64,000 nt of DNA from Lepisosteus oculatus (taxonomy: Eukaryota; Chordata; Actinopteri; Semionotiformes; Lepisosteidae), in assembly GCF_040954835.1 (NCBI RefSeq), contig NW_027168341.1, forward strand, positions 310,001 through 374,000, in the 5' to 3' direction. Shown here piece after piece: positions 38,351-61,559 of the stretch. Each line of letters opens with the position of its first letter. The first letter of the stretch is position 1. A program made the position numbers and the translations under genes. Below the pieces are notes generated by a model that worked only from the letters and a program-made list of their open reading frames with translations, ran no database searches and had not been told where the DNA came from.

Positions 38351-38357
38351 ACCTAGC

Positions 38358-41616: not shown

Positions 41617-41634
41617 GCCCACCCAGGGACGCCA
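41617..41634 (-). other. Primer-binding site of the LTR fossil (tRNA-Asn type)
   Basis: On the minus strand it begins TGG and then matches the complement of the 3' end of tRNA-Asn(GTT) over 15 bases. It lies five bases after the LTR end. The cognate tRNA genes are in the array in this same window. Confidence 0.85.
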
Positions 41635-41639
41635 TTAAA

Positions 41640-43019: not shown

Positions 43020-43537
43020 CTTGTATCCCAACTTTTGCAACTCGCAACTGAAAACCCACTGAAGCTAAGCAGGTGTGAGCCAGGTCAGTACCAGGATGAG
43101 GGTGAGCTACAGGGAAAAACAAAGCTTCCAGCTGGAAGTGGTGTTAATGGGCGCTCACTCTGAGGTCTGTACGGGTCCCAATGTCCCAATATAGTGACGG
43201 AGAAGCTGTGTTGGAAAAAGGGCGCTGTCTTTTGGATGAGATGTAAAACCGAGGTCATAGTGCTCTGTGGTCATTAAAAATGACCACCAAAACCTTTGAC
43301 AAAAGCTCTTGGTAATTGATGGTCTTCAATAATGCTTCTCCTTTAGGTACATTTTAAATCAGCTGAAAAATGCTGTGAAATGGGGGGGCACTTCAGGCCA
43401 GTGTAGGATTTGGGTTACAAGAACTATGAAACTGCACGAGAAAGCCCGTACACTGAATTACACGGCTTTCTATTCAAAGGACAAAAGAAATTCCCTGAGC
43501 TTGATTTTTTGCAGCACAGAGAGGACCACTGTTGTGA

Positions 43538-43611
43538 GGTCGGTTAGCTCAGTTGGTTAGATGGTGGTGCTAGTAACGCCAAGGTTGCGGGTTTGAGCCG
43601 CGTACGGGCCA
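43538..43611 (+). pseudogene. tRNA-Ile body with AGT (Thr) anticodon
   Basis: 74 nt aligned over its whole length with tRNA-Ile(AAT), but the loop is CTAGTAA, so the anticodon reads AGT. The anticodon stem pairs well. The D stem (GCTC/GATG) and T stem (one G:G) have mismatches, which favours a pseudogene. If it were expressed and charged as Ile it would misread Thr codons. Confidence 0.7.
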
Positions 43612-44185
43612 GGTCCTTTTCTCCTCTCTTACCAAAGCTGTTAGGTTCCTTTCCGTGGTGAGATGGGTTGTCATGCAACGCTGCCACATAGCACCGACAG
43701 ACAAGAGTGTTGCGGGAGAAGAGAAATGTGTTTGAAGATTTAAGAGTGTCTTAGGTGCAGCCAAAATCAAGTGTCACAAATGCAAGTGGTTGGATTTCCA
43801 TTGTTTAATATGGTAAAAATAAGCGGAAGTAATCTGCCGGTCCGGCACAGTCTGCCATGCTTTTGTCATTTACTGTAAAGTGGTATTGAACTGGGTGTCG
43901 AACTGGAGCCTCACCATTTGCATATGTGAGGCTCCAGTTATACATCGAGTGTCACATTAAATGACAAAAATGAAGAGAGTTAAAGCAGCTGGAGAGGTTT
44001 TCTTACAACTTTTGAGCTGACACAGTTTTGGAAAATGTTTCCTTCACGCTGCACTGTACAACATAGGCAGCCAAGAGTCTCCAAAACAAAACAGAATTGA
44101 CAGATAGGAGAAAATTCCCACTCGTCCTGAAGTTCCCAAAATCAAGCACTGAGCGTAAACAAAGTGTCTAAGTAGCGTGGGAATG

Positions 44186-44201
44186 CTAACCCTAACCCTA
44201 G
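44186..44201. repeat. Short interstitial telomere-like motif
   Basis: Just over two CCCTAA units, present in inverted form at 36851-36866 in the homologous spacer. It is too short to mark a telomere fusion. Confidence 0.7.
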
Positions 44202-44483
44202 CGTAAAAAGATGAGTCAAAGTAACGTCTAATCGGATTAGTTTCCTTAGAGCTGGTTCAGAGTTTGCTGAAGAGTTTACCCAGTGGGCACTGATTCGTCG
44301 AATATACGTATATTCACGGCGAAAATACGGCTATACGTATATATACGTCGCCTCGACGTATAATCAAAGTCGAATTGCAACCGTAAAATCGACGACATTA
44401 ATAAACGCATATATAACGTCGAAAACACATCTAACACAGTGCCTGAGGCTTTTTACTGTATGTATCGTGTGTGCCGCAACTAG

Positions 44484-44630: not shown

Positions 44631-45124
44631 AAGTTAGGTACATCTTTTTGCCCAAAACTGAAGGGGCGACATTCCTCCCTCCCCCCGTGATGCCAGGCCT
44701 GTCCCCATCCTATTCCATAATGTCATTATACTGTATATAATACCATACAACAGTGACCGATCCTTACTAACTGCATGCGTTAAAATTGCACATCAGCTCA
44801 TAGCAGGGGGCACATAGCCGCGATGTATTATCAATGTTAAATTTCAACCATAATATCGACAACATTAATAAACGCATACGTTGAGAAAATATCGAACCCA
44901 GCATATTTTCCGGTTATATACCACAATGCATTGCTAGTATTCCTTGGTCACCATTTTGGACACGTTTTTCAAACGTAGAAGTATATCCGCAAATATCTCA
45001 GCAATCCTCTTTTGACGAGTAAGTATGAACAATAATAATACTATCTGAATACATACAGATCTTTCTTAATATTATTTTGATTAAAATAGTAAGTGAATAA
45101 GCAAAAAATGGCACATAAAATAGT

Positions 45125-45445
45125 GGAGCTTTTTAAACGTCTGTACTTACTGCGCCCCATAAGAAATCGTTTGTCCCCGTTCAAAAGAGGTTGTGCGATG
45201 TCCTGCAGCGTTCGCAAAGCAAACCTTTGACAGTTTGAAAAGAGGAATTTATTCTGCTTCCTGTGCGTGCAGTAGTTACAAAGTTGAACGTCTTTACACG
45301 ATCTGCTGCAGTTTTCAGTGGGCAGGCGTTGTCAAATGGCTTGGAAAAACGCACTGTGTTTCGGCTCGGCAAACATCGTGAGCAGTGTCCTGCATGTTTT
45401 CTGTGTATAGCTGTCTTTTAACGCATACAGAATTCATTCGAAATG
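45125..45445. repeat. Captured snRNA-cluster spacer segment
   Basis: Nearly identical to 46832-47150 and 61770-62095, and inverted at 48475-48655. Here it lies inside the terminal-repeat element, starting at 'gtggagctttttaaacg' and ending at 'attcattcgaaat'. No RNA gene is recognised in it. Confidence 0.85.
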
Positions 45446-46228
45446 GGGAATGGTGTGAATGGGGAAGATGACACTAAATCGTTTTGCCGTTTCTCTATTC
45501 TTATTCTATGTTGTACTTTCAAACTTTGGGTACTCTTTAATTAGGACAGACTTTATTGCTCAACTTCTATGATGCAAGCCAAATTTTATACATTTATTTC
45601 AGCTTTGAGCTTAGTAAACCGTTCATTTTTTAGATTATACTAAAGAAGATATTAATCATCATTAATTTGGGAAGTAATATTATATAATTTTCTCCTAGCT
45701 GCGGTGCTGAAGTCCCGCCCTAAATCAGCAGAAAAAGAAATAAAGGAGCACGCAATGTGTTACTTGAAGAATGCATATGCAAGGCAGGGGGCCAGGAGAT
45801 CTGGACACTGAAAATACTAGGTTTTTGGTTCTAACTGTTAGGACAATTACACAGGGTTTGCAAATAGTGGACAAAAATCGTCTTAACTTCCATTGTAATA
45901 TTTTTTTTCTTGGAAATATAGAAGTTGTACATTTTAAAATGTATATTTGAATCAAAATGTGGTTTTGAGTTAGTGTGTTAATGTAATTAGTTTGTGTTTG
46001 CCGTTACTATACTGTATATTGCCATATTACCAGAATTTGTAGCTGAAGTTTAAGACTAGTTGTGTTTTTTATGATTATTGCCCATATGTTGATTGTTGAT
46101 TGATTGTATACAATGTATAATTTGAAATACATATTTTTCAGGTGTGAATGTGTATTTTCAGAATAAATTTCTAAACCAAATCATTGGGTTGATTTACTAG
46201 TTTCTACACCTGTAAAACCTAACTTTGA

Positions 46229-46545
46229 TGTATAATAGACCTCTACCCATATACGTATAATAGACCTCTAAAGTTATCCGTATAATAGACCTCTAACCAT
46301 ATACATATAATAGACCTCTAAAGTTATCCGTATAATAGACCTCTACCCATATACGTATAATAGACCTCTAAAGTTATCCGTATAATAGACCTCCAACCAT
46401 ATACGTAGAATAGTCCTCTAAAGTTATCCGGAACTCCTACCATATATGTATAATAGTCCTCTAAATTTATCCGTATAATAGAACTCCAACCATTTACGTA
46501 TAATGAACATCTAATCATAGACGTATAATTGACGTATAACAATAG
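46229..46545. repeat. Minisatellite with alternating ~25-bp monomers
   Basis: The core 'ataatagacctcta' recurs about a dozen times, followed alternately by a 'ccatatacgt' or an 'aagttatccgt' tail, making a ~50-bp dimer. Copies degrade toward the right end. Confidence 0.9.
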
Positions 46546-46649
46546 ACGTATATTAGAATTTCATTCTAGACGAATTGCAGACCACATTTAGACGTCTAAG
46601 GTATGCGTTTAATAGACGTATATTATACGTCTTTTGCCCACTGGGTTAC

Positions 46650-47155
46650 GTCTCAACAGAAACGCTCTTTAGCTCTTTCAGTGTTATGCAGAGAACAGCG
46701 TCTGTCGAGATCACTTTTGAGTCAGCGCGAAACGCCGTGTGCTGTCAGTTTGATTTCATATTGCTCGTAGCGGCGCCCGGCTTTTGTCTGTCAAACGTTA
46801 GGTTGCGCTTCTTCATGCTGCATCGTCGGCATGAGTGGAGCTTTTTAAACGTCTGTACTTACTGCGCCCCATAAGAAATCGTTTGTCCCCGTTCAAAAGA
46901 GATTTTGCGATGTCCTGCAGCGTTCGCAAAGCAAACCTTTGACAGTTTGAAAAGAGGAATTTATTCTGGTTCCTGTGCGTGCAGTAGTTACAAAGTTGAA
47001 CGTCTTTACACGATCTGCTGCAGTTTTCAGTGGGCGGGCTTTGTCAGATGGCTTGGAAAAACGCACTGTGTTTCGGCTCGGGAAACATCATGAGCAGTGT
47101 CCTGCATGTTTTCTGTGTATAGCTGTCTTTTGACGCATACAGAATTCATTCGAAA
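46650..47155. repeat. U4 downstream spacer copy without its U4 gene
   Basis: Matches the DNA that follows U4 at 61585-62105, and the inverse at 48475-48840. The U4 gene is missing here; the sequence begins right after the terminal repeat of the 44279 element. Confidence 0.85.
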
Positions 47156-47522
47156 TCATTGATTTCTCCAATTATCAAGGGTCCCTTAAAGGATGAGTCA
47201 AAGTAACGTCTAATCGGATTAGTTTCCTTAGAGCTGGTTCAGAGTTTGCTCAAGAGTTTACCTTTCACAGATGTGCAAAGAAGAATGTTGGGGGTGCACG
47301 CTTCAAGGTGCCTTACAGTGCGTTGTTTCCGACACAGTGTGGCCGGGTGTTTTCCGAGTTATCGCACGGATTGGGCACGCCCACAAGCCGAGAGCCGCAG
47401 GCGATGAGCCCGGGGCTGAACGGGCCCCACTGGCTAGTTTGTAAGGCCAGGTGCATTGCCAACCACGACCGGCAGCGCAGAGGCTTTGAAGGCGGTCTGG
47501 GCTCCTGCAGCTGTGCAGCCAC

Positions 47523-47645
47523 GCACTCTGGTTTCTCTTCATCTCGTACAAATCTTTCGCCTTTTATTAAAGATTTCCGTGGAGAGGAGCATGAATAAGT
47601 TCCATGCAATTTTTGTGCTTCCCTGCCTTCGGGTGGGGCGCAGCC
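47523..47645 (+). ncRNA. U5 snRNA, copy 1 (loop I variant)
   Basis: Matches U5: CTCTGGTTTCTCTTC at the 5' end, the loop I region, AAAGATTTCCGTGGAGAG, the Sm site CAATTTTTG and a 3' hairpin closed by TTCG. U5 loop I holds exon ends in the spliceosome and its core GCCUUUUAC is very conserved; here it reads GCCTTTTAT. That change makes full function doubtful. A 3' box-like GGTCAAAGAGAGA follows at 47651-47663. The end coordinate is approximate. Confidence 0.85.
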
Positions 47646-48030
47646 TGGCTGGTCAAAGAGAGAAAACAAAAACGTTCGCAATCACTCTTGTTATGGCAAT
47701 TGTGGCCGTCTGCTCCGCGAGTCCTCGGTCTCCGGCTGTCTGATTGGCGCTCTTTTCTTTGGGGGGCGGGAAGTGTCCGGCCGCAGGGGATCTTGGGACC
47801 TCGCTTTGCATAGCGGCTTCCCAGAGTGCGTCGTTTCCGGCACAGTGTGGCTGGGTGTTTTCCGACTTATCGCACGGATTGGGCACGGCCGCAAGCTGAG
47901 AGCCGCAGGCAATGAGCCCGGAGCTGAACGGGCCCCACTGGCTCGTTTGTAAGGCCAGGTGTATTGCCAACCATGACCGGCAGCGCAGAGGCTTTGAAGG
48001 CGGCCTGGGCTCCTGCAGCTGTGCAGCCAT

Positions 48031-48152
48031 GCACTCTGGTTTCTCTTCATCTCGTACAAATCTTTCGCCTTTTACTAAAGATTTCCGTGGAGAGGAGCAT
48101 GAATGAGTTCCCTGCAATTTTTGTGCTTCCCTGCTTTCGGGTCGCGGGCAGC
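48031..48152 (+). ncRNA. U5 snRNA, copy 2
   Basis: Same architecture as copy 1 but with the canonical loop I GCCTTTTAC. The Sm site CAATTTTTG is intact and the 3' hairpin has compensating differences (CTGC TTTC GGGTCG). A 3' box-like GGTCAAAGAGAGA lies at about 48159-48171. It is the best candidate for a functional U5 here. Confidence 0.9.
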
Positions 48153-48474
48153 TGGGCTGGTCAAAGAGAGAAAACAAGCACGTTCGCAATCGCTCTTGTA
48201 ATGGTGATTGTGGCCGTCTGCTCCGTGAGTCCTCGATCTCCGGCCGTCTGATTGGCGCTCTTTTCTTTGGGGGGCGGGAAGTGTCCGGCCGCAGGGGATC
48301 TTGGGACCTCGCTTTGCATAGCGGCTTCCCAGAGTGCGTCGTTTCCGGCACAGTGTGGCCGGGTGTTTTCCGAGTTATCGCACGGATTGGGCACGCTCGC
48401 AAGCCGTGAGCCGCAGGCGATGAGCCCGGAGCTGAACGGGCCCCACTGGCTCGTTTGTAAGATCTGCGGCAGAT

Positions 48475-48840
48475 CGTATAAAGACGTTCAACTTTGTAAC
48501 TACTGCACGCACAGGAAGCAGAATAAATTCCTCTTTCAAACTGTCAAAGGTTTGCTTTGCGAACGCTGCAGGACATCGCACAATCTGTTTTGAACGGGGA
48601 CAAACGATTTCTTATGAGGCGCAGTAAATACAGACGTTTAAAAAGCTCCACTCATGCCGACGATGCAGCATGAAGAAGGGCAACCTAACGTTTGACAGAC
48701 AAAAGCCGGGCGCCGCTACAAGCAATATGAAATCAAACTGACAGCACACGGCGTTTCGCGCTGACTCAAAAGTGATCTCGACAGACGCTGTTCTCTGCAT
48801 AACGCTGAAAGAGCTAAAGAGTGTTTCTGTTGAGACGTAA
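48475..48840. repeat. Inverted U4 downstream spacer
   Basis: Reverse complement of the spacer at 61560-61990. It lies correctly downstream of the minus-strand U4 at 48901-49046 and is fused at 48464 to a truncated U5 unit. An open frame across it with several CxxC pairs depends on a one-base difference from the other copies and is not taken as coding. Confidence 0.85.
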
Positions 48841-48880
48841 CAAGCTTGTTTCTTTCTACCATGATGTTACCATGACAAAA

Positions 48881-48893
48881 TCTGTCTTTAAAC
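48881..48893 (-). promoter_or_regulatory. snRNA 3' box of U4 (minus)
   Basis: On the minus strand it reads GTTTAAAGACAGA, a close match to the vertebrate snRNA 3' box, located 7-8 nt after the U4 3' end. Confidence 0.85.
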
Positions 48894-48900
48894 ACCTTGC

Positions 48901-49046
48901 TCAGTCTCTGACGAGACTGTCAAGAATTGCTTTCGCCGATTGTATTGCAAACCGGCGGAAGCGGGGTATTGGGAAAAGTTTTCAACTAGCAATAATCGCG
49001 CATCGGCTAAACCTCACAGGCTACGATACTGCCACTGCGCAAAGCT
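48901..49046 (-). ncRNA. U4 snRNA (minus copy)
   Basis: AGCTTTGCGCAGTGGCAGTA at the 5' end, the U6-pairing stem regions, the 5' stem-loop, TTGAAAACTTTTCCC, the Sm-like site CAATTCTTGA and the 3' hairpin GTCTC..GAGAC are all recognisable. The length of 146 nt fits U4 (about 145). In the U4/U6 di-snRNP it keeps U6 inactive until activation. The Sm site differs by one base (ATTCTTG) from the ATTTTTG of the 61378 copy, which may weaken Sm binding. Confidence 0.88.
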
Positions 49047-49271
49047 GACGGTTGCCAGGCAACCGCGTGGATCCTATGGAAATCGTTATCAATCGTCTCA
49101 TGGCATGTCGTTGCTGTAACGCTTCATATTTGCGGCCGGACACTTCCCGCCCCCCAAAGAAAAGAGCACCAATCAGACAGGCGGAGACCGAGGACTCGCA
49201 GAGCAGACGGCCATAGTCGCAGTAATAAGAGCGATTGTGAGCGGTTTTGTTTTCTCTCTTTGACCAGCCCA

Positions 49272-49393
49272 GCTGCGCCCCACCCGAAGGCAGGAAAGCA
49301 CAAAAATTGTATGGAACTCATTCATGCTCCTCTTCATGGAAATCTTTAGTAAAAGGCAAAAGATTTGTACGAGATGAAGAGAAACCAGAGTGC
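49272..49393 (-). ncRNA. U5 snRNA, copy 3 (minus)
   Basis: U5 on the minus strand with the 5' CACTCTGG, loop I GCCTTTTAC, Sm site CAATTTTTG and TTCG-closed 3' hairpin. Stem changes (CTTTTGCC, CCATGAAGAG) differ from the plus copies. It lies upstream of U4 in the same orientation, so the order here is U5 then U4. Confidence 0.85.
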
Positions 49394-49528
49394 GTGGCTG
49401 GACAGCTGCAGGAGCCCAGGCTGCCTTCAAGGCCTCTGCCCTGCCGGTCGTGGTTGGCAATGCACCTGGCCTTACAAACGAGCCAGTGGGGCCCGTTCAG
49501 CTCCGGGCTCATCGCCTGCGGCTCTCGG

Positions 49529-49557
49529 CTTACCTGGCAGGGGAGATACCTTGATCA
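49529..49557 (+). pseudogene. U1 snRNA 5' fragment (nt 4-32) before the LINE
   Basis: CTTACCTGGCAGGGGAG and on to TTGATCA equals U1 nucleotides 4-32 of the intact copies, including the 5' splice-site-recognising ACTTACCT minus its first three bases. It abuts the LINE at 49558. To its left is U5-gene flank, not U1 promoter, and the two share CGGCTT/CTT at the joint. Confidence 0.9.
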
Positions 49558-49624
49558 GCCTGTAGTTGGAGTAGTTGGATTGTTTTCTTGTTTTGTGGAA
49601 GCAGTGTTTGTTTTGCAGTTTGAG

Positions 49625-50569
49625 ATGGCAACCTTTGGATCCCGCAAGAATGCTGTACGTTTTGAGCTTTTGGATGACCTGTTCATGGATCGTATGCAGT
49701 TCAGCAGAAAAGTGTTACAGAAGGAACTTGGCTTTGAACCTCGGCACTTGGATTTCATCTTTGCTCTCCCAGGTCAGAAAGCATTTGAGGTTGTATTTGG
49801 TACCTATCCTCTGTTTGAACAATGCGTGGATGTGTTTGAGGCAAAAAGAGGGAAAGTTCCTGCACTTGAGAAGATCAACTTGCAGCCTCTGACACAGAGA
49901 GAGAGGAAAACGGTGCATGTTGTTATGTTCTCGGAACTGGCAAAGACGGAGGACATTCACACCTGGCTTAACCAGTACTGCACCGTCCACCATGGAACTG
50001 AGGTTAGAGATGTTGACGGTATAAAAACAGGAGCAAGGAAATTCGAGGTTCGCTTACTACCGGACAATGTAAATGGAGGCTTAAGGCACCTGCCCTCTAC
50101 AATCCGGCTGGGCGCCTGCAATGGCTATGTTTTTTATGTGGGACAACCAAAGGTGTGTCGGCGCTGTGGTGCTGTGGGACACCTGGCATCTTCCTGCACT
50201 GTGAAATGCTGCAAGACCTGTGGCAAACAGGGACATTTAGCCTCTGACTTTTCAATGCTGCCAAAGTGCAATTTATGTGGCTCGGAAGGACACGTTTTTA
50301 AGAACTGCCCTCACGCCTACGCCAATAAACTCAAAATGAGAAAGGATGAGGCAGTGCTTGTTTCAGCCAAACCGGCCCGAAAAGCCAAAGCAAACAACAA
50401 GTCAAACAAAGAACCCTTGTTGGACAAAGAGTCTCAGCCTCCAGCCAGGATCAGTCCTGCTGTGGCTCCGGGGCCGGTGGAAGAGAAATCCACTACGCTC
50501 CCACAACCGCAGACTGCACCAGACAAGCAAGGGTGGAGCTACTCAAGGCACTCTCTCCCCTATTGTTAA
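49625..50569 (+). CDS. LINE ORF1: CCHC zinc-knuckle protein
   Basis: 314 aa starting MATFGSRKNAVRFELLDD. The frame is open further upstream, but that part is U5-gene DNA, so the ATG at 49625 is chosen. The N-terminal ~160 residues are a globular part seen in Tx1/L1-like ORF1 proteins. Residues ~175-225 hold three tandem knuckles: CRRCGAVGHLASSC (C-x2-C-x4-H-x4-C), CKTCGKQGHLASDF (last C replaced by F) and CNLCGSEGHVFKNC. A K/S-rich tail follows. Such proteins bind the element RNA and form the RNP with ORF2p. The tail overlaps the ORF2 frame, probably because a deletion joined the two ORFs. Confidence 0.85.
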   Translation: MATFGSRKNAVRFELLDDLFMDRMQFSRKVLQKELGFEPRHLDFIFALPGQKAFEVVFGTYPLFEQCVDVFEAKRGKVPALEKINLQPLTQRERKTVHVVMFSELAKTEDIHTWLNQYCTVHHGTEVRDVDGIKTGARKFEVRLLPDNVNGGLRHLPSTIRLGACNGYVFYVGQPKVCRRCGAVGHLASSCTVKCCKTCGKQGHLASDFSMLPKCNLCGSEGHVFKNCPHAYANKLKMRKDEAVLVSAKPARKAKANNKSNKEPLLDKESQPPARISPAVAPGPVEEKSTTLPQPQTAPDKQGWSYSRHSLPYC

Positions 50570-53500
50570 GTAGCACAGACGTGATAGTGGGAGGGGATTT
50601 TAATTGTATCTTAGAGCACACAGACAGGCAGTCTAGCTCTCCGATAAAATTGGATTCCAGCTCACTGGCCCTGCAAAACTTAGTTCAAGACTTTAAACTC
50701 TCAGACACATATAGATGTATATATCCCACAACAGCAGGATATGCATGGTCAGGGAGGAATAGCAGCTCCAGAATTGACTATTGCTTTGTCTCAGAGAGAG
50801 TGAAAGTTGTTGGGGTCACTCTTCAGCCTGTCTTCTTCTCAGATCATCAGGCTTTAGGGTGTAGAGTGGAACTCCAGGGCGGGACTGTCTTTGGCCCAGG
50901 CCTCTGGAAACTCAACACAAAGCTGCTAGAGAACGAGGGGGTAGTATCCCGCTACAAGGAGAAACTATCACAGTGGCTGTCCTTGCAGTGTCTGTACGGG
51001 TCAGTAGGAGAGTGGTGGGAGGAGGTGAAGATGAGGACAAAGACCTTTTTCATGGCTGAGGGAAGGAAGGCTGCTGCCAGACGGAGAGGAGTGCTAGCCA
51101 GGAAACAGAGGCAGCTGCAGCGTCTCTACACGATGCTGCACAGTGGCTTCGATGTGCTCGAGGATATCACCCTTTTAAAAAAGGACATCCGGAGCATAGC
51201 CGAAGAAAGTAGTCGAGGAGTGCTGTTAAGAGGCAGAGTGCAGTTCTTGGAAGAAAATGAGAAGTGTACTCGCTTCTTTTTCAGGAAAGTGGTAGGCTCC
51301 AAGTCTGTCATGGAAAGTGTAGTTGATGAGGAGGGACGAGAGAGAACAGAGCCGAGTGCTATCCTCTCCTGCACCGAGGCCTTCTACTCAAGACTGTACA
51401 GCTCTACAGAGGTAAAGGATGAAGAAATTCATTTTTTTACCTCAAAGCTAGAAAACGTTTTGAGTGAAGAAGATAGGGAAGTACTTGAGAGGGATTTGAC
51501 AGTAGAAGAGCTGAGACAGGCTATGGAGAGCTTACAGAAGGGGAAAACTCCAGGTGCTGACGGGCTCCCTAAAGAATTTTATTGCACCTTTTGGGATCTG
51601 CTTCAGGATCCGCTACTGGTCCTATTCGAGGAAAGATATAAGACAGAATTGCTGCCTGACTCCTTAAGAGAAGGCACTATCTCTCTCTTGTTTAAGAAAG
51701 GAGCAAAAAATGACATAAAGAACTGGAGACCCCTCAGCCTGTTAGGCGTGGACACTAAGATCCTGTCCAAAGCCCTTTTCCTGCACCTACAAAATGTAGT
51801 GGCCTCACTGGTAGGGAAAGAACAGACTTGTGGGATAGCAGGACGCCTGATGAGCGACAACCTGGCCTTGTTGAGGGATGTCTGTCTGTACTCTGAGGAT
51901 CGCTCCCTCCCTCTTTGCATTTTAGGTGTAGACCTAGAAAAGGCCTTTGACCGCCTAAACCGGCAGTACTTAACATCGGGACTTGAGCACATGAAGTTTG
52001 GCCCCATCATGAGAAAGTGGATTAACCTGCTGTACACAGGTAGCAACAGCAGAGTCATGGTTAATGGCAATAGATCACGCCCCTTTGAAGTCTGTTCAGG
52101 GGTGAGGCAGGGCTGCCCATTATCCCCCTTGTTATGCGTTTTGGCTATGGAGCCCTTAGCCTGTGCCTTGCGCCAGGATCAGGCCATTAATGGGATACCA
52201 GTGCCTGGAAGTGGGGGAGGAGAGGTAAAGACATCTCTATACATGGATGACGTCACCCTGCTCCTCTCTGACAATGCCTCAATTAGCAGAGCTCTGCAGT
52301 GCTGTGATCGGTTCTCTTTGGCTTCCTCCGCAAAAATTAACACATCTAAGAGTGAGATTTTTTATCAGAACTGGAGGGAGCCAAAAGAAGGACATGATCT
52401 CAGGCTGCAAGAGAAGAGAATTAAGGTCCTGGGGGTGTATTTTGGAGAAGAGATGGGAACAGTAAATTGGCAGAACAAATTGCCAATCTTAAACAAAAAA
52501 CTGATGCAATGGAAGGACCGAGACCTCACCATGACAGGGAAGGTGCTGGTCATCAAAGCCGAGCTCTTGCCTGTCTTGAATTTTCTGGCTTCTACCTTCC
52601 CAATCCCACACCGTGTTGCGGCGGTGATGAGGAGATTGATGTTTCAATTTCTATGGGGTGGGAAGCAGGAAAGACTCAGAAGGGAAATAATGTACAGGCC
52701 GCTACCCTCAGGGGGGAAGTCTGTCCCAGATATTGCTACGAAGCTGCTGTGCATTTTCCTGGCCTCTGTGCTGAGAGGCTTTGCAACAGCACCTGCAGCG
52801 CGTACCTGGACTTATTTTTCCAGGCTCTGGGTAGGTAGGGAGGTGTTCAGAGTGTGGGGTGTCAGACCCAAGCTGGACGTCCCACTCTCTGACACATGCC
52901 CTGCAATTTATGGGACAGTTAAAAGTTTTCTAAGATCTCACCCAATTGGCCATATTCCCCTCCGAGATGTCAGCGTCCAAAAACTGGAAGATTTCGTTGC
53001 ACCCCAGAACAATAGGCAGACCCATGTGGGCATTTTAACATCAGCCCAAACAAGGAAGGTGTGGAAACACACATCCTCTAAGTTTCTGTGCAACATTCAC
53101 AGAGATTTAGCCTGGAGTGTCGTCCACCAGTGCTTACCGGTACGAACTTTCTTGTACCGTAGGGGCCTCACCCCCAGCCCTCGCTGCGTTAGGGTGGGCT
53201 GCGGCGAGGAGGAGACTGTATCCCATCTCCTGTGGTCCTGCTTTTTTGCTAAGGCCTTCTGGGCACAGTTTGAAGATTGGTTGCTGGCTCTCTCGCCCCA
53301 ATTTACCCTGACCGCTGCTTTCGTCATATACGGCATCTCTCCTGTCAAACTTCCTCCTGACGTGTTTGACAGGATCTGGGCCGTGGTGAACAGTGGGAAA
53401 GTTGCCCTGTGGAGAGTGAAGAACATGGGGCTGTTCAAAGGCATCGAGATCCCAGTCAAGGCAGCAGGTAGCCTGGCCCTGTTCATCACCCGAGAGAACT

Positions 53501-53592
53501 ATTACCTCAGAGATCTGTGGAGAGAAGGGAGGGAGGAAGCAGAGAATCTGTGGGAAATAGAGAGCATAGGTCAATATCTCAAGAAACTGTGA
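50533..53592 (+). CDS. LINE ORF2: endonuclease (partial) and reverse transcriptase
   Basis: About 1019 codons, open throughout, but the frame has no ATG at its left end (GTG at 50533). Residues 1-110 are only the C-terminal half of an APE-type endonuclease: GGDFNC near 20-25, RIDYCF near 80 and SDH at 103-105. The N-terminal half with the first catalytic residues is missing. RT: GKTPGADGLP near 335, RPLSLL near 400, VDLEKAFDR near 475, RQGCPLSPLL near 530 and YMDD at 570-573 (52240-52251). A zinc motif C885-x4-C890-x7-H898-x4-C903 follows, as in other Tx1-like proteins. The RT looks intact; nicking its own target looks impossible without the missing part. Confidence 0.9.
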   Translation: MELLKALSPLLLSSTDVIVGGDFNCILEHTDRQSSSPIKLDSSSLALQNLVQDFKLSDTYRCIYPTTAGYAWSGRNSSSRIDYCFVSERVKVVGVTLQPVFFSDHQALGCRVELQGGTVFGPGLWKLNTKLLENEGVVSRYKEKLSQWLSLQCLYGSVGEWWEEVKMRTKTFFMAEGRKAAARRRGVLARKQRQLQRLYTMLHSGFDVLEDITLLKKDIRSIAEESSRGVLLRGRVQFLEENEKCTRFFFRKVVGSKSVMESVVDEEGRERTEPSAILSCTEAFYSRLYSSTEVKDEEIHFFTSKLENVLSEEDREVLERDLTVEELRQAMESLQKGKTPGADGLPKEFYCTFWDLLQDPLLVLFEERYKTELLPDSLREGTISLLFKKGAKNDIKNWRPLSLLGVDTKILSKALFLHLQNVVASLVGKEQTCGIAGRLMSDNLALLRDVCLYSEDRSLPLCILGVDLEKAFDRLNRQYLTSGLEHMKFGPIMRKWINLLYTGSNSRVMVNGNRSRPFEVCSGVRQGCPLSPLLCVLAMEPLACALRQDQAINGIPVPGSGGGEVKTSLYMDDVTLLLSDNASISRALQCCDRFSLASSAKINTSKSEIFYQNWREPKEGHDLRLQEKRIKVLGVYFGEEMGTVNWQNKLPILNKKLMQWKDRDLTMTGKVLVIKAELLPVLNFLASTFPIPHRVAAVMRRLMFQFLWGGKQERLRREIMYRPLPSGGKSVPDIATKLLCIFLASVLRGFATAPAARTWTYFSRLWVGREVFRVWGVRPKLDVPLSDTCPAIYGTVKSFLRSHPIGHIPLRDVSVQKLEDFVAPQNNRQTHVGILTSAQTRKVWKHTSSKFLCNIHRDLAWSVVHQCLPVRTFLYRRGLTPSPRCVRVGCGEEETVSHLLWSCFFAKAFWAQFEDWLLALSPQFTLTAAFVIYGISPVKLPPDVFDRIWAVVNSGKVALWRVKNMGLFKGIEIPVKAAGSLALFITRENYYLRDLWREGREEAENLWEIESIGQYLKKL

Positions 53593-53788
53593 AAAACATT
53601 ATCAAGTTTAAGTAAAGAATGTGATTTGCACCAGAAAAAAAGAAAATTGTTGCTATGTAACTGTCAAAATGTAATGAGATGTGATCATATATACTGTTTT
53701 AAGTATGTATATGAATGTAAAGCTTTCTGATTTGTGATGTCCTGTATTTTTTTGTGAAAAGAAAATAAAGTTCTTAAAAATCGAAATC
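53593..53788 (+). other. LINE 3' UTR
   Basis: Runs from the ORF2 stop to the U1 joint. It contains AATAAAG near its end and finishes with a short A-run and TCGAAATC, without a poly(A) tail. In site-specific LINEs the 3' end often anneals to target DNA; the next bases are U1 GGTTCACCC. Confidence 0.8.
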
Positions 53789-53913
53789 GGTTCACCCAGG
53801 GCGAGGCTCGGCCATTGCACTCCGGCTGTGCTGACCCCTGCGAATTCCCCAAATGTGGGAATCTCGACTGCATAATTTCTGGTAGTTGGGGACTGCGTTC
53901 GCGCTCTCCCCTG
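53789..53913 (+). pseudogene. U1 snRNA 3' part (nt 40-164) after the LINE
   Basis: 125 nt identical or nearly so to the intact U1 copies from nt 40 to the end, including the Sm site region CATAATTTCTGG and the last hairpin. Its 3' box GTCCAAAATCAGA follows at 53923-53935. It is disrupted by the LINE and lacks its promoter. Confidence 0.93.
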
Positions 53914-54548
53914 ATGTGCTTGGTCCAAAATCAGATACGGGAGGGTTAGGACACCACGAGCTGCGTGGCTGCGGAAGGATCCCGGTTCGAAAGGAGTCGA
54001 CGCCGCTGCTGGTTCTCGCTGGCTTTTAGTTAGGGGTCCGGAGAAGCATCTCAAGCTAGTTCCACTACTCCTTCCGGACGTTCATTCCCTTTTCAAAGTC
54101 AGTCGTTTTGCTATAGTCTGCGTTCTTTAGGCTGATTATCGAGGTTAGCCTTTATTTGGTCATGGGGGGCCTCGGTACTGTATGCTGAGTCTAAAGACAG
54201 TTTCACCCGTTTTCTGATTGCTCGGTTCTGTACCAGTGCAGACATGTCAAACAGTGAATGGCTGTACCTCTATTGTATCCGTGCTCAATGAATGAAATCG
54301 GTAACAAATGAATATATGTCTAGTTATACGAAAAACGAGTGGTTTATCGACTCATCTTCATTTGCAGATTTAGAGGCAGCTTCGATATTCGTTTTACAGA
54401 CGGGTTTTTTTTTTGGAATATGGGTCACACACATGCCACAGCAACAAAACATCTCTAGAGATGAGGCTATAGATCACCTTTCCATCCTGCAGGTTTTCCT
54501 CCCAAAGCCTACGGCACCAACGGCGACCCCTGCTGGCCGGGAGAGCAA

Positions 54549-54668
54549 AAGCTAACAGCACCTGGTATTCCCAGGCAGTCTCCCATCCAAGTACTAACCA
54601 GGCCCGACGCTGCTTAGCTTCCAAGATCAGACGAGATCGGGCGTGTTCAGGGTGGTGTGGCCATAAGC
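54549..54668 (-). rRNA. 5S rRNA, copy 1
   Basis: 120 nt on the minus strand, starting GCTTATGGCCACACCACCC. The internal control region (A box AAGCTAAGCAG, C box TGGATGGGAGAC) is present and a TTTT terminator follows. Its 3' end reads GTTAGC where copies 2 and 3 read GTAAGC, which adds one mismatch to helix I; the 5' TTAT may partly compensate. Confidence 0.93.
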
Positions 54669-55309
54669 GAAAACCCCGGCGCCTGACTCGCTACTTGAAG
54701 CTGTGTGTGGCGGGGGTTCCGTGCCCCCCGAGCGGGACTGAAGGATCGTTCGTGTGCAACTCTTTGGAAAGGAGCTGCTTTCCAAATCGCATTGCGTGCC
54801 TGGATGTTGGCGAATGCGCTCCCTTGTGTTGGCTCGTCCCGCACTGGAGGAGGACAAACAATCTGCACGGAGGAGCACCAGGCAAGTCTTCACCAGACAA
54901 AAACCTCCAGTGCACAGCACTCTGGAAACATTTCGGGGCTTTCGCGTGTTTATTTCAGCACGTAAAGCGCACCGGTCCAACACGTCGGCCGCGTGCGCGG
55001 CGCCTCCGCCCTCTTGTGGCCTTGCGGCGTCAGAGCAAGAGGCTCCTTCTCGCTGCCCTTCCGCTGTGTTGCAGGACCCGGAGCGCGCACTTTGTGGGGG
55101 GCGGGGGACCGCGTTCGCGCTCTGCCCCCGGTCTCTTGCGCGAGTACTAAATCTCACGGACAGGGGGGCCTCGTCATTGATTGTTACAGGTGAGACGGGG
55201 ATTAGGAGGAGACCCCGACTGATGTGTAAAGGGGAGCACTAACACCAGAGGGACACCCCCGGCGTCTCTTTTTGAGAGACGCCCTGGGGTTTCCTAATGG
55301 CCAAGGAGG

Positions 55310-55560
55310 GTCGGGACCTCGGTTTGACCTCTGTTTGTGCAGCAGAGTGTCGCCATCAGGAGGCTGGGGCGTAAGAGAGCCACACAGCCCGCAGGGTGAG
55401 CGCTCCCAACTGGTCCCAGTCACACCTCTTGCAGGAGCAGCAGCAACCGGAGCTTTTCCGGGGTGGAATCTCCCATCCGGGTGCCGGCCAGGCTCACACC
55501 TGCTGGGCTGCCCCGGGGGTGAGCCCAGTTGAGAGTCGCAGGGCCAGATCTAGTCACCGG
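55310..55560. repeat. Diverged SINE-like repeat inside the 5S-U1 spacer
   Basis: Same order of motifs as the repeat at 34755-35025: 'gtcgccatcaggaggctggg', 'gggtgagcgctcc' and 'catccgggtgccggccaggc' with a 5S-like core. It recurs in the next unit at about 58060-58280. It has been GC-enriched relative to the outside copies. Confidence 0.6.
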
Positions 55561-56202
55561 GGAGAAACGATACAAGTGAAGGATTGCTCGGCTCTCAGCA
55601 CTTGAAAAGACCGACAAATGTCTTGTTCCCGCCGGAGCTGAATGTACCCGCATGTGTGGTGTCGTCTTCTTCCCCCGCCCCGCTGTGTTTGCTGTATTGT
55701 CTCTGAAGCCGGCCCCCCCGAGACGAGACGGGCTGTTCCTGTGCCCCAATTAACACTTTACAGGTGCCATTCCCCGGTATTGTGGCCATTGTCGGTGCTC
55801 ACACGCGATAAGATAAGGCGGAGGAGAGCGGGGCATGCCCAGCGGCAGACATTCAAGGAGGGGGCAGTGCGAGGTGAGGTGAGGTGCGACACGCCGGAGC
55901 CCCAACGCAGCTAATGCGGAGCACTTTTTGGACTGGCATCGAAAGGACGTGTGCGCACGGAGCAAGCCTTCCCTGCGGCGGAGCGCGGGAACTTTCTCCC
56001 CCCCTCCCGCTGCAGGGGTTTTGTGCACTGCAGCGGTGCCGAGAGAAAAGCACAGAAGGCAGCAGGCTCTGGAGAGCAGGTAAGAGATGGAGCCTTGTGG
56101 GCAGGCGAGCAGGCCCGTTTTTTGGAAATTGCTGAAAAGGTTTGTTCGGTGTGTGGCAGGCGCACGTCGCGAGCTTGCGTGGCGATCTGCCGGTCTGGAG
56201 TT

Positions 56203-56210
56203 ATGCAAAT
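56203..56210 (+). promoter_or_regulatory. Octamer of the U1 distal sequence element, copy 1
   Basis: ATGCAAAT at -241 to -234 from the U1 start. Vertebrate snRNA genes carry an octamer-containing enhancer about 200-250 bp upstream, so position and sequence fit. The proximal element near -60 cannot be defined confidently; 'ggtggcctaggctgcgcgat' occupies that place. Confidence 0.75.
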
Positions 56211-56443
56211 GAGGCCGAATTGCATCCCGGGACATGCTGCGAATGCGCAACGGCGACTGCAGATGTGTAGGAAACGGCGCGCTCGTTTTCTCGTTTTGCC
56301 CACACTTTTGAGTGTTAGTGTGGCGTGTGAGTGTGTGAAAGAGTGGGCCCAGCAGGAGGCGGTGGCGTGCGGGGCGAGGAGGTGGCCTAGGCTGCGCGAT
56401 TTGTGCTGTGGGTGCGGGCCGCTTGCAGGGGCCTGTTTAACTC

Positions 56444-56607
56444 ATACTTACCTGGCAGGGGAGATACCTTGATCAAGAAGGAGGTTCACCCAGGGCGAGG
56501 CTCGGCCATTGAACTCCGGCTGTGCTGACCCCTGCGAATTCCCCAAATGTGGGAAACTCGACTGCATAATTTCTGGTAGTGGGGGACTGCGTTCGCGCTC
56601 TCCCCTG
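56444..56607 (+). ncRNA. U1 snRNA, copy 2
   Basis: 164 nt, the usual U1 length. The 5' ATACTTACCTG pairs with 5' splice sites. Stem-loops I-III, the Sm site (CATAATTTCTGG) and the terminal hairpin are present. Two bases in the body (ccattgaactcc, gggaaactcg) differ from the other copies. It is transcribed by Pol II; the 3' box GTCCAAAATCAGA lies at 56617-56629. Confidence 0.95.
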
Positions 56608-56616
56608 ATGTGCTTG

Positions 56617-56629
56617 GTCCAAAATCAGA
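56617..56629 (+). promoter_or_regulatory. snRNA 3' box of U1 copy 2
   Basis: GTCCAAAATCAGA, 10 nt after the U1 end, matches the snRNA 3' processing box pattern. Equivalent boxes lie at 53923-53935 and 59343-59355. Confidence 0.8.
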
Positions 56630-57242
56630 TACGGGAGGGTTAGGACACCACGAGCTGCGTGGCTGCGGAAGGATCCCGGTTCGACAGGAGTGGACGCCGC
56701 TGCTGGTTCTCGCTGGCTTTTAGTTAGGGGTCCGGAGAAGCATCTCAAGCTAGTTCCACTACTCCTTCCGGACGTTCATTCCCTTTTCAAAGTCAGTCGT
56801 TTTGCTGTAGTCTGCGTTCTTTAGGCTGATTATCGAGGTTAGCCTTTATTTGGTCATGGGGGGCCTCGGTACTGTATGCTGAGTCTAAAGACAGTTTCAC
56901 CCGTTTTCTGATTTCTCGGTTCTGTACCAGTGCAGACATGTCAAACAGTGAATGGCTGTACCTCTACTGTATCCGTGCTCAATGAATGAAATCGGTAACA
57001 AATGAATATATGTCTAGTTATACGAAAAACGAGTGGTTTATCGACTCATCTTCATTTGCAGATTTAGAGGCAGCTTCGATATTCGTTTTACAGACGGGTT
57101 TTTTTTTTTGAATATGGGTCACACACATGCCACAGCAACAAAACATCTCTAGAGATGAGGCTATAGATCACCTTTCCATCCTGCAGGTTTTCCTCCCAAA
57201 GCCTACGGCACCAACGGCGACCCCTGCTGGCCGGGAGAGCAA

Positions 57243-57362
57243 AAGCTTACAGCACCTGGTATTCCCAGGCAGTCTCCCATCCAAGTACTAACCAGGCCCG
57301 ACGCTGCTTAGCCTCCGAGATCAGACGAGATCGGGCGTGTTCAGGGTGGTGTGGCCATAAGC
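57243..57362 (-). rRNA. 5S rRNA, copy 2
   Basis: 120 nt on the minus strand with the 3' GTAAGCTT end. It has TCTCGGAGGCTAAGC where copies 1 and 3 have TCTTGGAAGCTAAGC, closer to the general vertebrate 5S. The downstream TTTT is present. Confidence 0.95.
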
Positions 57363-58928
57363 GAAAGCCCCGGCGCCTGACTCGCTACTTGAAGCTGTGT
57401 GTGGCGGGGGTTCCGTGCTCCCCGAGCGGGACTGAAGGATCGTTCGTGTGCCACTCTTTGGAAAGGAGCTGCTTTCCAAATCGCATTGCGTGCCTGGATG
57501 TTGGCGAATGCGCTCCCTTGTGTTGACTCGTCCCGCACTGGAGGAGGACAAACAATCTGCACGGAGGAGCACCAGGCAAGTCTTCACCAGACAAAAACCT
57601 CCAGTGCACAGCACTCTGGAAACATTTCGGGGCTTTCGCGTGTTTATTTCAGCACGTAAAGCGCACCGGTCCAACACGTCGGCCGGGCGCGCGGCGCCTC
57701 CGCCCTCTTGTGGCCTTGCGGCGTCAGAGCAAGAGGCTCCTTCTCGCTGCCCTTCCGCTGTGTTGCAGGGCCCCGAGAGGGAACCCGGAGCGCGCACTTT
57801 GTGGGGGGCGGGTGACCGCGTTCGCGCTCTGCCCCCGGTCTCTTGCGCGAGTACTAAATCTCACGGACAGGGGGGCCTCGTCATTGATTGTTACAGGTGA
57901 GACGGGGATTAGGAGGAGACCCCGACTGATGGGTAAAGGGGAGCACTAACACCAGAGGGACACCCCCGGCGTCTCTTTTTGAGAGACGCCCTGGGGTTTC
58001 CTAATGGCCAAGGAGGGTCAGGACCTCGGTTTGACGCCTCCCCCGAAGGACGGCGCCTGTTTGTGCAGCAGAGTGTCGCCATCAGGAGGCTGGGGCGTAA
58101 GAGAGCCACACAGCCCGCAGGGTGAGCGATCCCTACTGGTCCCAGTCACACCTCTTGCAGGAGCAGCAGCAACCGGAGCTTTTCCGGGGTGGAATCTCCC
58201 ATCCGGGTGCCGGCGAGGCTCACACCTGCTGGGCTGCCCCGGGGGTGAGCCCAGTCGAGAGTCGCAGGGCCAGATCTAGTCACCGGGGAGAAACGATACA
58301 AGTGAAGGATTGCTCGGCTCTCGGCACTTGAAAAGACCGACAAATGTCTCGTTCCCGCCGGAGCTGAATGTACCCGCATGTGTGGTGTCGTCTTCTTCCC
58401 CCGCCCCGCTGTGTTTGCTGTATTGTCTCTGAAGCCGGCCCCCCCGAGACGAGATGGGCTGTTCCTGTGCCCCAATTAACACTTTACAGGTGCCATTCCC
58501 CGGCATTGTGGCCATTGTCGGTGCTCACACGCGATAAGATAAGGCGGAGGAGAGCGGGGCATGCCCAGCGGCAGACATTCAAGGAGGGGGCAGTGCGAGG
58601 TGAGGTGAGGTGCGACACGCCGGAGCCCCGACGCAGCTAATGCGGAGCACTTGTTGGACTGGCATCGAAAGGACGTGAGCGCACGGAGCGAGCCTTCCCT
58701 GCGGCGGAGCGCGGGAACTTTCTCCCCCCCTCCCGCTGCAGGAGTTGTGTGCACTGCAGCGGTGCCGAGAGAAAAGCACAGAAGGCAGCAGGCTCTGGAG
58801 AGCAGGTAAGAGACGGAGCCTTGTGGGCAGGCGAGCAGGCCTGTTTTTTGGAAATTGCTGAAAAGGTTTGTTCGGTGTGTGGCAGGCGCACGTCGCGAGC
58901 TTGCGTGGCGATCTGCCGGTCTGGAGTT

Positions 58929-58936
58929 ATGCAAAT
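58929..58936 (+). promoter_or_regulatory. Octamer of the U1 distal sequence element, copy 2
   Basis: ATGCAAAT at the same -241 to -234 position upstream of U1 at 59170. Confidence 0.75.
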
Positions 58937-59169
58937 GAGGCCGAATTGCATCCCGGGACATGCTGCGAATGCGCAACGGCGACTGCAGATGTGTAGGAAA
59001 CGGCGCGCTCGTTTTCTCGTTTTGCCCACACTTTTGAGTGTTAGTGTGGCGTGTGAGTGTGTGAAAGAGTGGGCCCAGCAGGAGGCGGTGGCGTGCGGGG
59101 CGAGGAGGTGGCCTAGGCTGCGCGATTTGTGCTGTGGGTGCGGGCCGCTTGCAGGGGCCTGTTTAACTT

Positions 59170-59333
59170 ATACTTACCTGGCAGGGGAGAAACCTTGATC
59201 AAGAAGGAGGTTCACCCAGGGCGAGGCTCGGCCATTGCACTCCGGCTGTGCTGACCCCTGCGAATTCCCCAAATGTGGGAATCTCGACTGCATAATTTCT
59301 GGTAGTGGGGGACTGCGTTCGCGCTCTCCCCTG
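59170..59333 (+). ncRNA. U1 snRNA, copy 3
   Basis: 164 nt with the same fold and Sm site as copy 2 and the 5' ATACTTACCTG intact. One base in stem I's 3' neighbourhood differs (gagaaacc instead of gagatacc). The 3' box is at 59343-59355. Confidence 0.95.
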
Positions 59334-59968
59334 ATGTGCTTGGTCCAAAATCAGATACGGGAGGGTTAGGACACCACGAGCTGCGTGGCTGCGGAAGGAT
59401 CCCGGTTCGACAGGAGTGGACGCCGCTGCTGGTTCTCGCTGGCTTTTAGTTAGGGGTCCGGAGAAGCATCTCAAGCTAGTTCCACTACTCCTTCCGGATG
59501 TTCATTCCCTTTTCAAAGTCAGTCGTTTTGCTGTAGTCTGCGTTCTTTAGGCTGATTATCGAGGTTAGCCTTTATTTGGTCATGGGGGGCCTCGGTACTG
59601 TATGCTGAGTCTAAAGACAGTTTCACCCGTTTTCTGATTGCTCGGTTCTGTACCAGTGCAGACATGTCAAACAGTGAATGGCTGTACCTCTATTGTATCC
59701 GTGCTCAATGAATGAAATCGGTAACAAATGAATATATGTCTAGTTATACGAAAAACGAGTGGTTTATCGACTCATCTTCATTTGCAGATTTAGAGGCAGC
59801 TTCGATATTCGTTTTACAGACGGGTTTTTTTTTTTGAATATGGGTCACACACATGCCACAGCAACAAAACATCTCTAGAGATGAGGCTATAGATCACCTT
59901 TCCATCCTGCAGGTTTTCCTCCCAAAGCCTACGGCACCAACAGCGACCCCTGCTGGCCGGGAGAGCAA

Positions 59969-60088
59969 AAGCTTACAGCACCTGGTATTCCCAGGCAGTC
60001 TCCCATCCAAGTACCAACCAGGACCGACGCTGCTTAGCTTCCAAGATCAGACGAGATCGGGCGTGTTCAGGGTGGTGTGGCCGTAAGC
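59969..60088 (-). rRNA. 5S rRNA, copy 3 (edge copy)
   Basis: 120 nt on the minus strand, starting GCTTACGG. It carries GGTCCTGGTTGGTACTTGG where the other copies read GGGCCTGGTTAGTACTTGG, two changes in otherwise conserved 5S positions. It is the last gene before the array breaks, so it may be drifting. Confidence 0.88.
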
Positions 60089-60415
60089 AAAAGCCCCGGC
60101 GCCTGACTCGCTACTTGAAGCTGTGTGTGGCGGGGGTTCCGTGCCCCCCGAGCGGGACTGAAGGATCGTTCGTGTGCAACTCTTTGGAAAGGAGCTGCTT
60201 TCCAAATCGCATTGCGTGCCTGGATGTTGGCGAATGCGCTCCCTTGTGTTGGCTCGTCCCGCACTGGAGGAGGACAAACAATCTGCACGGAAGAGCACCA
60301 GGCAAGTCTTCAGTGCACAGCACTCTGGAAACATTTCGGGGCTGTCTCGTGTTTATTTCAGCACGTAAAGCACACCGGTCCAACATATCGGCCGGGCGCG
60401 CGGCGCCTCCGCCCT

Positions 60416-61320
60416 GTTGCTGCCCCTGCAGCTTCTTCACTTTTCCCTTTAGTTGCCATCGATTTTTTTGTAGTGCTATACATATACGATTGAGGTATCT
60501 TAGAGTTCTCCTTCGAAGACCCAGCACTCTCTTTTCTTTTCCCAGTGTTACTCATATCGGACTTTTTAAACCTAAAAAAAAATCGTTTTTTCTTTCAATT
60601 ATAACTGAAGTTTAAACAACTAGTGTTAAGTCCTTATTTTTCTGTAGTCAAAAAAAGCAAAAATTAACATTCAGGTCATGAAAAACTCAAAAAAACTCCC
60701 GAACCACTAAACTTTACCTCCCACCTGAGCGCCATCTTGAACGCCCCTACCACCAGAGAATGCTCACGATTTCGGAAGCTGCCTCCGGGACGTGCTGATT
60801 CCACACATCCTGAATAAATCATGATATTGTTAGTTGCTGTAGCTAGACGTTCAAATGAGTTTCATGGCCAGATGGACTGTTTCCTCCAGCGGTATAATAA
60901 TGCAGTGAGACAGCACGATGCCTGCAAGACTCTTTCACGCTAAACGCCACAGATTGTGTTTGTCCGTTCGTGTCAGTCGTCCCGCAGCCACGGGAAGTGT
61001 GACACAAACATGCTGCAATGCTTTCAAGACGTTAGGATTTGTTTGTGCAACATCCAAGAAGAGTACTTGTGGCTTGAATGTGAACTGTACGTGCCCGCCC
61101 CCTTTCCTCTATAGTGCATGAGTTCCTCCCGGCATGCCCTTCGTCATTGTTCTGTCATCTTGTATTTAAAGGGTTGTATTTCTGCTGCTGAAAATAAGCA
61201 ACGGTTTTCTCACAACGCCCTTTGTTCCCAACGGAGCCCTTGTCTGTCATGAAATTCTTCAAAACCTCAAGCTAGAAGAAGAAGAAGACGACAAATATGA
61301 AGCGTTATAGCAACGACATG
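60416..61320. other. Spacer with no recognised gene
   Basis: Unique DNA between the broken 5S-U1 unit and the U4 gene. T-rich runs near 60460-60660, no domain-bearing frame and no RNA gene recognised. It should contain the upstream control elements of the U4 at 61378. No clear octamer is seen; 'gccatgagacgatcgataac' near -60 is also present before the other U4 and may be the proximal element. Confidence 0.6.
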
Positions 61321-61338
61321 CCATGAGACGATCGATAA
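61319..61338 (+). promoter_or_regulatory. Candidate proximal sequence element of U4
   Basis: 'gccatgagacgatcgataac', about 40-60 bp upstream of U4, is kept with one change before the minus-strand U4 (near 49088-49107). Position and conservation suggest the PSE; the sequence match to the vertebrate consensus is weak. Confidence 0.45.
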
Positions 61339-61377
61339 CGATTTCCATAGGATCCCCGCGGTTGCCCGGCAACCGTC

Positions 61378-61522
61378 AACTTTGCGCAGTGGCAGTATCG
61401 TAGCCTGTGAGGTTTAGCCGAGGCGCGATTATTGCTAGTTGAAAACTTTTCCCAATACTCGCTTCCACCGGTTTGCAATACAATCGGCGAAAGCAATTTT
61501 TGACAGTCTCGTCAGAGACTGA
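61378..61522 (+). ncRNA. U4 snRNA (plus copy)
   Basis: 145 nt, exactly the usual U4 length. GCGCAGTGGCAGTATCGTAG at the 5' side, GCGCGATTATTGCTA, TTGAAAACTTTTCCC, the Sm site AATTTTTG and the terminal hairpin are all present. The RNA starts AAC where AGC is usual. The Sm site is canonical, unlike the minus copy. The 3' box GTTTAAAGACAGA lies at 61530-61542. Confidence 0.92.
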
Positions 61523-61529
61523 GCAAGGT

Positions 61530-61542
61530 GTTTAAAGACAGA
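61530..61542 (+). promoter_or_regulatory. snRNA 3' box of U4 (plus)
   Basis: GTTTAAAGACAGA, identical to the box of the minus-strand U4 and at the same spacing. Confidence 0.88.
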
Positions 61543-61559
61543 TTTGGTCACGGTGATAT

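Follow-up and report, generated by a model that had tools for sequence, protein, structure and literature searches.

Does the long interspersed nuclear element (LINE) that interrupts a U1 small nuclear RNA (snRNA) gene of the gar Lepisosteus oculatus belong to a lineage that targets U1 genes, or did it land there by chance? The locus was analyzed in a stretch of 64,000 nucleotides (assembly GCF_040954835.1, contig NW_027168341.1, positions 310,001 to 374,000, forward strand), which as a whole is referred to here as the window. A real LINE insertion is present in U1; the copy is defective and the left side of the locus is rearranged. We put at about an even chance the reading that this is a gar Tx1-clade-like LINE, probably of a U1-targeting lineage, that was inserted by target-primed reverse transcription in the first U1 gene of an array of linked U1 and 5S ribosomal RNA (rRNA) genes (the U1-5S array). 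The target locus comprises the following features:

49529 to 49557, plus strand: U1 snRNA nucleotides (nt) 4 to 32, identical at 29 of 29 positions to the intact U1 gene at 56444, with a 3-base (CTT) overlap with a U5 unit
53789 to 53913, plus strand: U1 snRNA nt 40 to 164, identical at 124 of 125 positions to the U1 gene at 59170
53914 to 56443, plus strand: U1-5S repeat unit spacer, with 97.4% identity to the one that follows
54550 to 54668, minus strand: 5S rRNA gene within the U1-5S spacer (Rfam)
56444 to 56607, plus strand: intact U1 gene, an empty site (Rfam, 163 bits)
59170 to 59333, plus strand: intact U1 gene, an empty site (Rfam, 169.4 bits)

A sequence-only reading had ended the left U1 piece at 49557, started the right one at 53789, and taken the genes at 56444 and 59170 as the uninterrupted site. 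The blastn self-comparison and an alignment returned exactly these coordinates, and the Rfam scores of the two genes agree with their being intact; the broken gene 3′ of the LINE scores 92.2 bits. Against the other intact gene in each case, the left piece matches at 28 of 29 positions (gene at 59170) and the right piece at 122 of 125 (gene at 56444). The order, all in the same orientation, is U1 nt 4 to 32, then the 4,231-bp LINE, then U1 nt 40 to 164, with the seven bases between the two LINE joints (nt 33 to 39) lost. The joint alignment revealed no target duplication at the LINE joints, this 7-base loss being found instead. Judged by eye, a stub that matches at 29 of 29 positions and lies in the right order, orientation, and register with the 3′ piece is far beyond chance.

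The right flank matches the next U1-5S unit at 97.1% identity over 3,970 aligned positions (blastn self-comparison), which indicates that the right side is a genuine U1-5S repeat unit; an alignment of the two U1-5S spacers, 2,561 columns long, contains 34 mismatches and 32 gap positions. When intact U1 is folded computationally, nt 24 to 27 pair with nt 35 to 38 around a loop of nt 28 to 34, so that the insertion would occupy this loop and its 3′ strand, in the stem-loop I region. The fold as a whole is not strong against shuffled sequences (z = −1.61). As a side observation, the repeat unit of the array (53789 to 60435) measures 2,726 bp and couples a U1 gene with a 5S gene on the opposite strand, beside U4 and U5 units.

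The left flank consists of a single feature:

49131 to 49531, minus strand: inverted, truncated U5 repeat unit, with its U5 gene at 49280 to 49393, minus strand (blastn self-comparison, Rfam, alignment)

This unit is 92.8% identical to 47385 to 47785 and 90.8% identical to 47893 to 48293 (blastn self-comparison), the parent U5 units standing in tandem at 47317 to 48461. It breaks off mid-unit, and the CTT at its end doubles as U1 nt 4 to 6. The U1 promoter is absent left of the stub, as the 303 bp ending at nt 3 of an intact U1 gene match fully, within the window, only at the two intact genes. Since the U5 unit abuts the stub and the promoter is missing, the left U1 piece, as it reads here, is an isolated promoterless stub of 29 bp, with a rearrangement at 49529 to 49531. 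The earlier description of the LINE as sitting precisely inside a U1 gene is therefore upheld on the right, where a true U1-5S unit follows, but not on the left, where a U5 unit without any U1 promoter abuts U1 nt 4.

More widely, U4 and U5 units facing either way make up a mosaic at 45122 to 49531 and 61292 to 62124, with several abrupt joints at which overlaps or gaps amount to only 0 to 3 bases. An AT-rich tandem repeat of 25/50 bp lies near the U5 units at 46230 to 46557.

The inserted element itself is made up of four parts:

49558 to 49624, plus strand: LINE 5′ untranslated region of only 67 bp, separating the U1 stub from the ATG start codon of open reading frame 1 (ORF1)
49625 to 50569, plus strand: ORF1, with ZCCHC3-type RNA-binding domains and a CCHC knuckle (Pfam PF23057, PF23058, PF00098); the family sequence ends at about 50527, followed by a deletion junction
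50533 to 53592, plus strand: remainder of ORF2, 1,019 amino acids (aa), with the C-terminal part of an APE-type endonuclease, a reverse transcriptase (RT), and a zinc-binding domain (Pfam PF03372, PF00078, PF13966)
53593 to 53788, plus strand: 3′ untranslated region of 196 bp, with AATAAA at 53764

ORF2 is open across its 1,019 codons and scores 262 bits against human L1 ORF2p and at most 77 bits against R2 proteins. By its APE-type endonuclease and RT domains and its L1 score, the element is a non-long-terminal-repeat retrotransposon of L1/Tx1 type. CCHC zinc knuckles in ORF1 are a feature of the Tx1 clade, and the expected knuckle is present (PF00098); in ORF1, this profile, PF23057, and PF23058 were above the cutoff and PF13696 was below it. 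With just 67 bp separating U1 nt 32 from the start of ORF1, the copy is apparently 5′ complete. No ribozyme was found at the LINE 5′ end in Rfam over 49400 to 49750, and a long noncoding RNA match at 49495 to 49626 (19.1 bits versus a gathering score of 60) was taken as chance. At the opposite end, the LINE of this copy is joined precisely and without a tail to U1 nt 40 (53788/53789). No poly(A) or repeat tail was found at this joint, although AATAAA ends 19 nt before it, and the LINE 3′ end shares only 6-mers with U1, with no sign of a U1-like tail.

The first ~121 residues of ORF2 are missing, since full-length relatives align from residue 122 to 124 in 7 of the 7 compared (drawn from the 17 closest), and the PF03372 match covers only positions 133 to 225 of the profile. 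ORF1 is identical at 224 of 228 residues (98%) over the aligned part to a ZCHC3 protein of Atractosteus spatula (P0121), from which one CCHC knuckle cysteine differs. P0121 stands for a cluster of 13 sequences and is the sole gar row among the 18 proteins found in the ORF1 search. This one match, taken by itself, makes a gar (Lepisosteidae) very probable as the host. The alignment extends to residue 301 of the window ORF, and P0121 continues for 151 residues further. Most simply, a single internal deletion would have taken away the tail of ORF1 together with the beginning of ORF2, as suggested by these two limits taken together, and the continuation of P0121 past the deletion point means that a copy without the deletion exists. 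The gar copy is therefore defective, but its open reading frames suggest that it is young.

Relatives were sought with the whole ORF2 protein (8,000 candidates scored, 360 found, best 120 considered) and with the RT piece (1,322 found, best 120 considered). Among the best 120 in each case, the 17 closest whole-ORF2 matches (P0001 to P0017) showed 44 to 49% identity over at least 97% of the query, and the RT piece reached 64% identity over 70%, with one Huso huso row at 62% over 55%. No gar ORF2 occurred among the matches listed (best 120 of 360 and best 120 of 1,322). In a tree of 106 rows, comprising the window ORF2 and the 105 of the 120 listed proteins with at least 980 aa, the window groups with P0001 to P0017 at a Shimodaira-Hasegawa-like approximate likelihood ratio test (SH-aLRT) value of 100. 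A second tree of 49 rows (the window plus 48 proteins hand-chosen from 258, with no L1 outgroup) gave the branching order Huso, window, and then 21 rows including a Xiphophorus protein (bootstrap/SH-aLRT, 100/97 and 97/91). Pleurodeles, Gastrophryne, and Danio proteins named “pol-like” and “transposon TX1 149 kDa” fall in its sister group, which has 12 rows. Long branches and uneven letter composition were flagged in both trees. The order of sturgeon, gar, and others would fit vertical descent in ray-finned fishes, with the Huso row filling only 33% of the columns and few rows carrying a species. The label “Tx1-like” fits the L1/Tx1-type domains and the grouping with fish and amphibian proteins; the clade name itself comes from the source names of two proteins.

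One further protein of the same fish LINE lineage, P0021, is filed under an Aeromonas metagenome-assembled genome (MAG), probably through host contamination.

According to the reading of a U1-targeting lineage, the endonuclease of the element would have introduced a bottom-strand nick separating U1 nt 39 from nt 40. The nicked strand would have served as primer for cDNA synthesis, with the LINE RNA as template from its untailed 3′ end. A cut of the top strand ~7 nt upstream, at U1 nt 32, would have led to the loss of nt 33 to 39. The U5 joint on the left side and the internal deletion would be rearrangements during or after insertion, and the proteins for insertion would have been supplied by complete family members elsewhere in the genome.

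In support of this reading, only 7 bases of U1 separate the two joints, whose order and orientation are as expected. The L1 endonuclease prefers TTTT/AA, and the inferred nick, GGGTGAACC/TCCTTC, is unlike that site. An apparently complete 5′ start, the lack of poly(A) and of a target duplication, and a site other than TTTT/AA are together more in line with a site-specific element than with random insertion of the L1 type. Most target-specific families fall into three groups, of which the Tx1 clade is one, and U2 is the target of Keno (PMC4640811). A U1-targeting LINE had been supposed to be little or not described, and indeed no LINE targeting U1 genes appeared among the papers listed by searches of the open full-text literature, a scope that excludes Repbase, bioRxiv, and most subscription papers. 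The accessible part of a 2015 paper names, in snRNA genes, only Keno and Utopia (both in U2), Dada-U1, and Dada-U6 (PMC4640811).

Several observations weigh against U1 specificity. Only a single copy is known, which cannot prove it, and no second LINE copy was found in the 64-kb window by blastn or by tblastn with the 120 listed ORF2 relatives. The case was picked after the fact. RNA genes make up 3,388 of the 59,769 window bases outside the LINE (5.7%) and U1 makes up 482 (0.8%), and a chance hit in an RNA gene is thus not remote. With a U5 unit as the left flank, this reading also has to invoke a rearrangement or an unusual 5′ joint. The Tx1 placement draws on protein names given by the sources, in a tree without a verified Keno, Mutsu, Kibi, or Tx1L row. 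No near-identical ORF2 was among the matches listed, the best reaching 49% over the whole protein, 51% over 77%, and 64% over 70% of the RT piece. Pattern searches of viral contigs yielded 7 and 228 stretches, none confirmed. In prokaryote genome contigs, none of 18 stretches from a first pattern search was confirmed, and 1 of 37 from a second was, a 29% relative (L001) in an Anaerolineae MAG, which is presumably contamination and was set aside.

The main rival explanation, to which we assign a rather low probability, is that a LINE without U1 specificity landed by chance in a U1 gene of an RNA-gene-rich region. Speaking against it, the copy has neither poly(A) nor a target duplication, sits at a site that does not resemble TTTT/AA, and is apparently 5′ complete, all of which are unusual for random L1-type insertions. 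It is favored by the single copy and by the RNA gene and U1 shares of the remaining window given above, which are a crude estimate. Kojima is said to have reported in 2015 that Tx1-Mar of crocodilians prefers a Mariner element, which we count on the same side. Weak specificity does occur, as crocodilian Utopia, of another clade, is found outside U2 with U2-like letters at the joints (PMC4640811).

The origin of the left break bears on how the element might live. Several further module joints lie nearby (48461/48464, 49131/49132, 47187/47188, and 60435; self-comparison), so the region rearranges often, which favors a plain DNA break. The break is, however, only 3 nt from the U1 start although the U1-5S unit carries a spacer of 2,562 bp, and this weakly suggests, against a plain break, a cDNA end copied from a U1-LINE read-through RNA. 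A whole reading in which a promoterless LINE lives on U1-promoter read-through, with the copy recording two successive U1 insertions, seems doubtful to us. The 67-bp 5′ region would then hold no promoter of its own, and transcription would begin where that of U1 does, giving an RNA with U1 nt 1 to 32 as its leader; on re-insertion, this leader would anneal to the upstream half of whichever U1 gene is hit next. U1 nt 4 to 32 would come from the donor RNA and nt 40 to 164 from the new target, the cDNA end having been joined to the U5 unit and not to U1.

It is unlikely that a Keno-type element, directed at U2, was retargeted or struck off target here. GATCAAG is common to U1 nt 28 to 34 and U2 nt 25 to 31, just upstream of the sites (unverified U2 letters). 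The 3′ target of Keno is TCTGTTCTTATCAGTTTAAT (PMC6136364), and Dada-U1 and Dada-U6 have almost identical letters around their sites (PMC8869645). The anchored U1/U2 similarity, for which the same U2 letters were used, looks suggestive by eye but is nevertheless not significant: U1 nt 39 ties for 4th to 8th of 140 U1 positions, 17% of 20,000 random window positions equal or beat it in similarity to the U2 site of Keno, and another 7-mer common to U1 and U2 lies away from the site. An assembly chimera in this repetitive RNA-gene region is very improbable; the region is indeed a mosaic of repeats, but repeat misassembly usually needs longer shared stretches, and the overlaps between parts at the joints are only 0 to 3 bases. 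SINEU elements (a group of short interspersed nuclear elements [SINEs]) reportedly carry U1 or U2 heads, which counts in favor of a template switch. Such a switch to U1 RNA at the LINE 5′ end would have added the stub whatever the target, in the manner of SINEU heads and snRNA/L1 chimeras, but it can hardly be credited. The stub does start close to the U1 RNA 5′ end, at nt 4, and template switching to snRNA is generally supported; yet the U6 part of the best-characterized chimeras, U6/L1, is consistently full length (PMC13174262). Here, by contrast, the U1 part goes no further than nt 32 and leaves a gap of 7 bases to the 3′ joint at nt 40, a spacing that needs no coincidence if U1 was the target.

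With respect to known systems, Keno is likewise an APE-type endonuclease LINE in a spliceosomal snRNA gene, with the target gene destroyed (PMC4640811, PMC6136364). Its site, ~37 to 38 nt into U2, is at a distance from the RNA start similar to that of the gar U1 site (PMC6136364), the differences being the U2 target and that the gar element is known from one copy. Membership in Keno by target was set aside because the copy sits in U1, not U2. Mutsu and Dewa belong to the Tx1 clade. In zebrafish, they are target specific for small multicopy RNA genes, 5S rRNA genes and a spacer of transfer RNA (tRNA)-Leu, respectively, and so differ in target from the gar element (PMC3706591). Utopia is also a LINE specific for an snRNA gene (U2), but it has a restriction-like endonuclease and belongs to another lineage (PMC4640811).

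Dada-U1 DNA transposons insert in U1 snRNA genes of ray-finned fishes, at a different site, CTGCGAAT, which starts at nt 89 of gar U1 (PMC3706591, PMC8869645). They have a DDE transposase and a 6- to 7-bp target duplication, whereas the gar LINE has RT and endonuclease domains and a 7-base loss, and these features ruled out membership in Dada-U1. SINEU and Tx1-Mar of crocodilians are said to carry U1 or U2 sequence at the 5′ end and to be moved by Tx1-clade machinery; in SINEU, U1 is reportedly the head of the SINE and not its target, with no U1 on the 3′ side. A U1 head of this type, with U1 sequence reportedly at the 5′ end only, does not describe the gar locus, where U1 nt 40 to 164 also lie on the 3′ side of the LINE.

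If specific, the gar element would be the first LINE known to target U1 genes in the literature examined, a counterpart to Keno in U2. It would allow the target changes of related endonucleases between snRNA genes to be compared and would represent a naturally occurring system for U1-directed integration. In U1, the loop region of stem-loop I is strongly conserved, and a site within it would explain how a U1-targeting lineage could last.

Elsewhere in the window, two overlapping ORFs of 228 and 226 aa (40172 to 41366, minus strand) look gag-like by eye, with no Pfam match at an E value of 0.001. They lie among large inverted repeats at 34333 to 44202 (584 nt at 95% identity, others at 90 to 97%) around scattered tRNA genes. 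Positions 1 to 29049 are occupied by a near-perfect tandem array (99.7 to 99.8% identity between copies) with a period of ~4,508 bp, whose units carry tRNA-Ser(TGA), tRNA-Asn(GTT), and tRNA-Arg(TCG).
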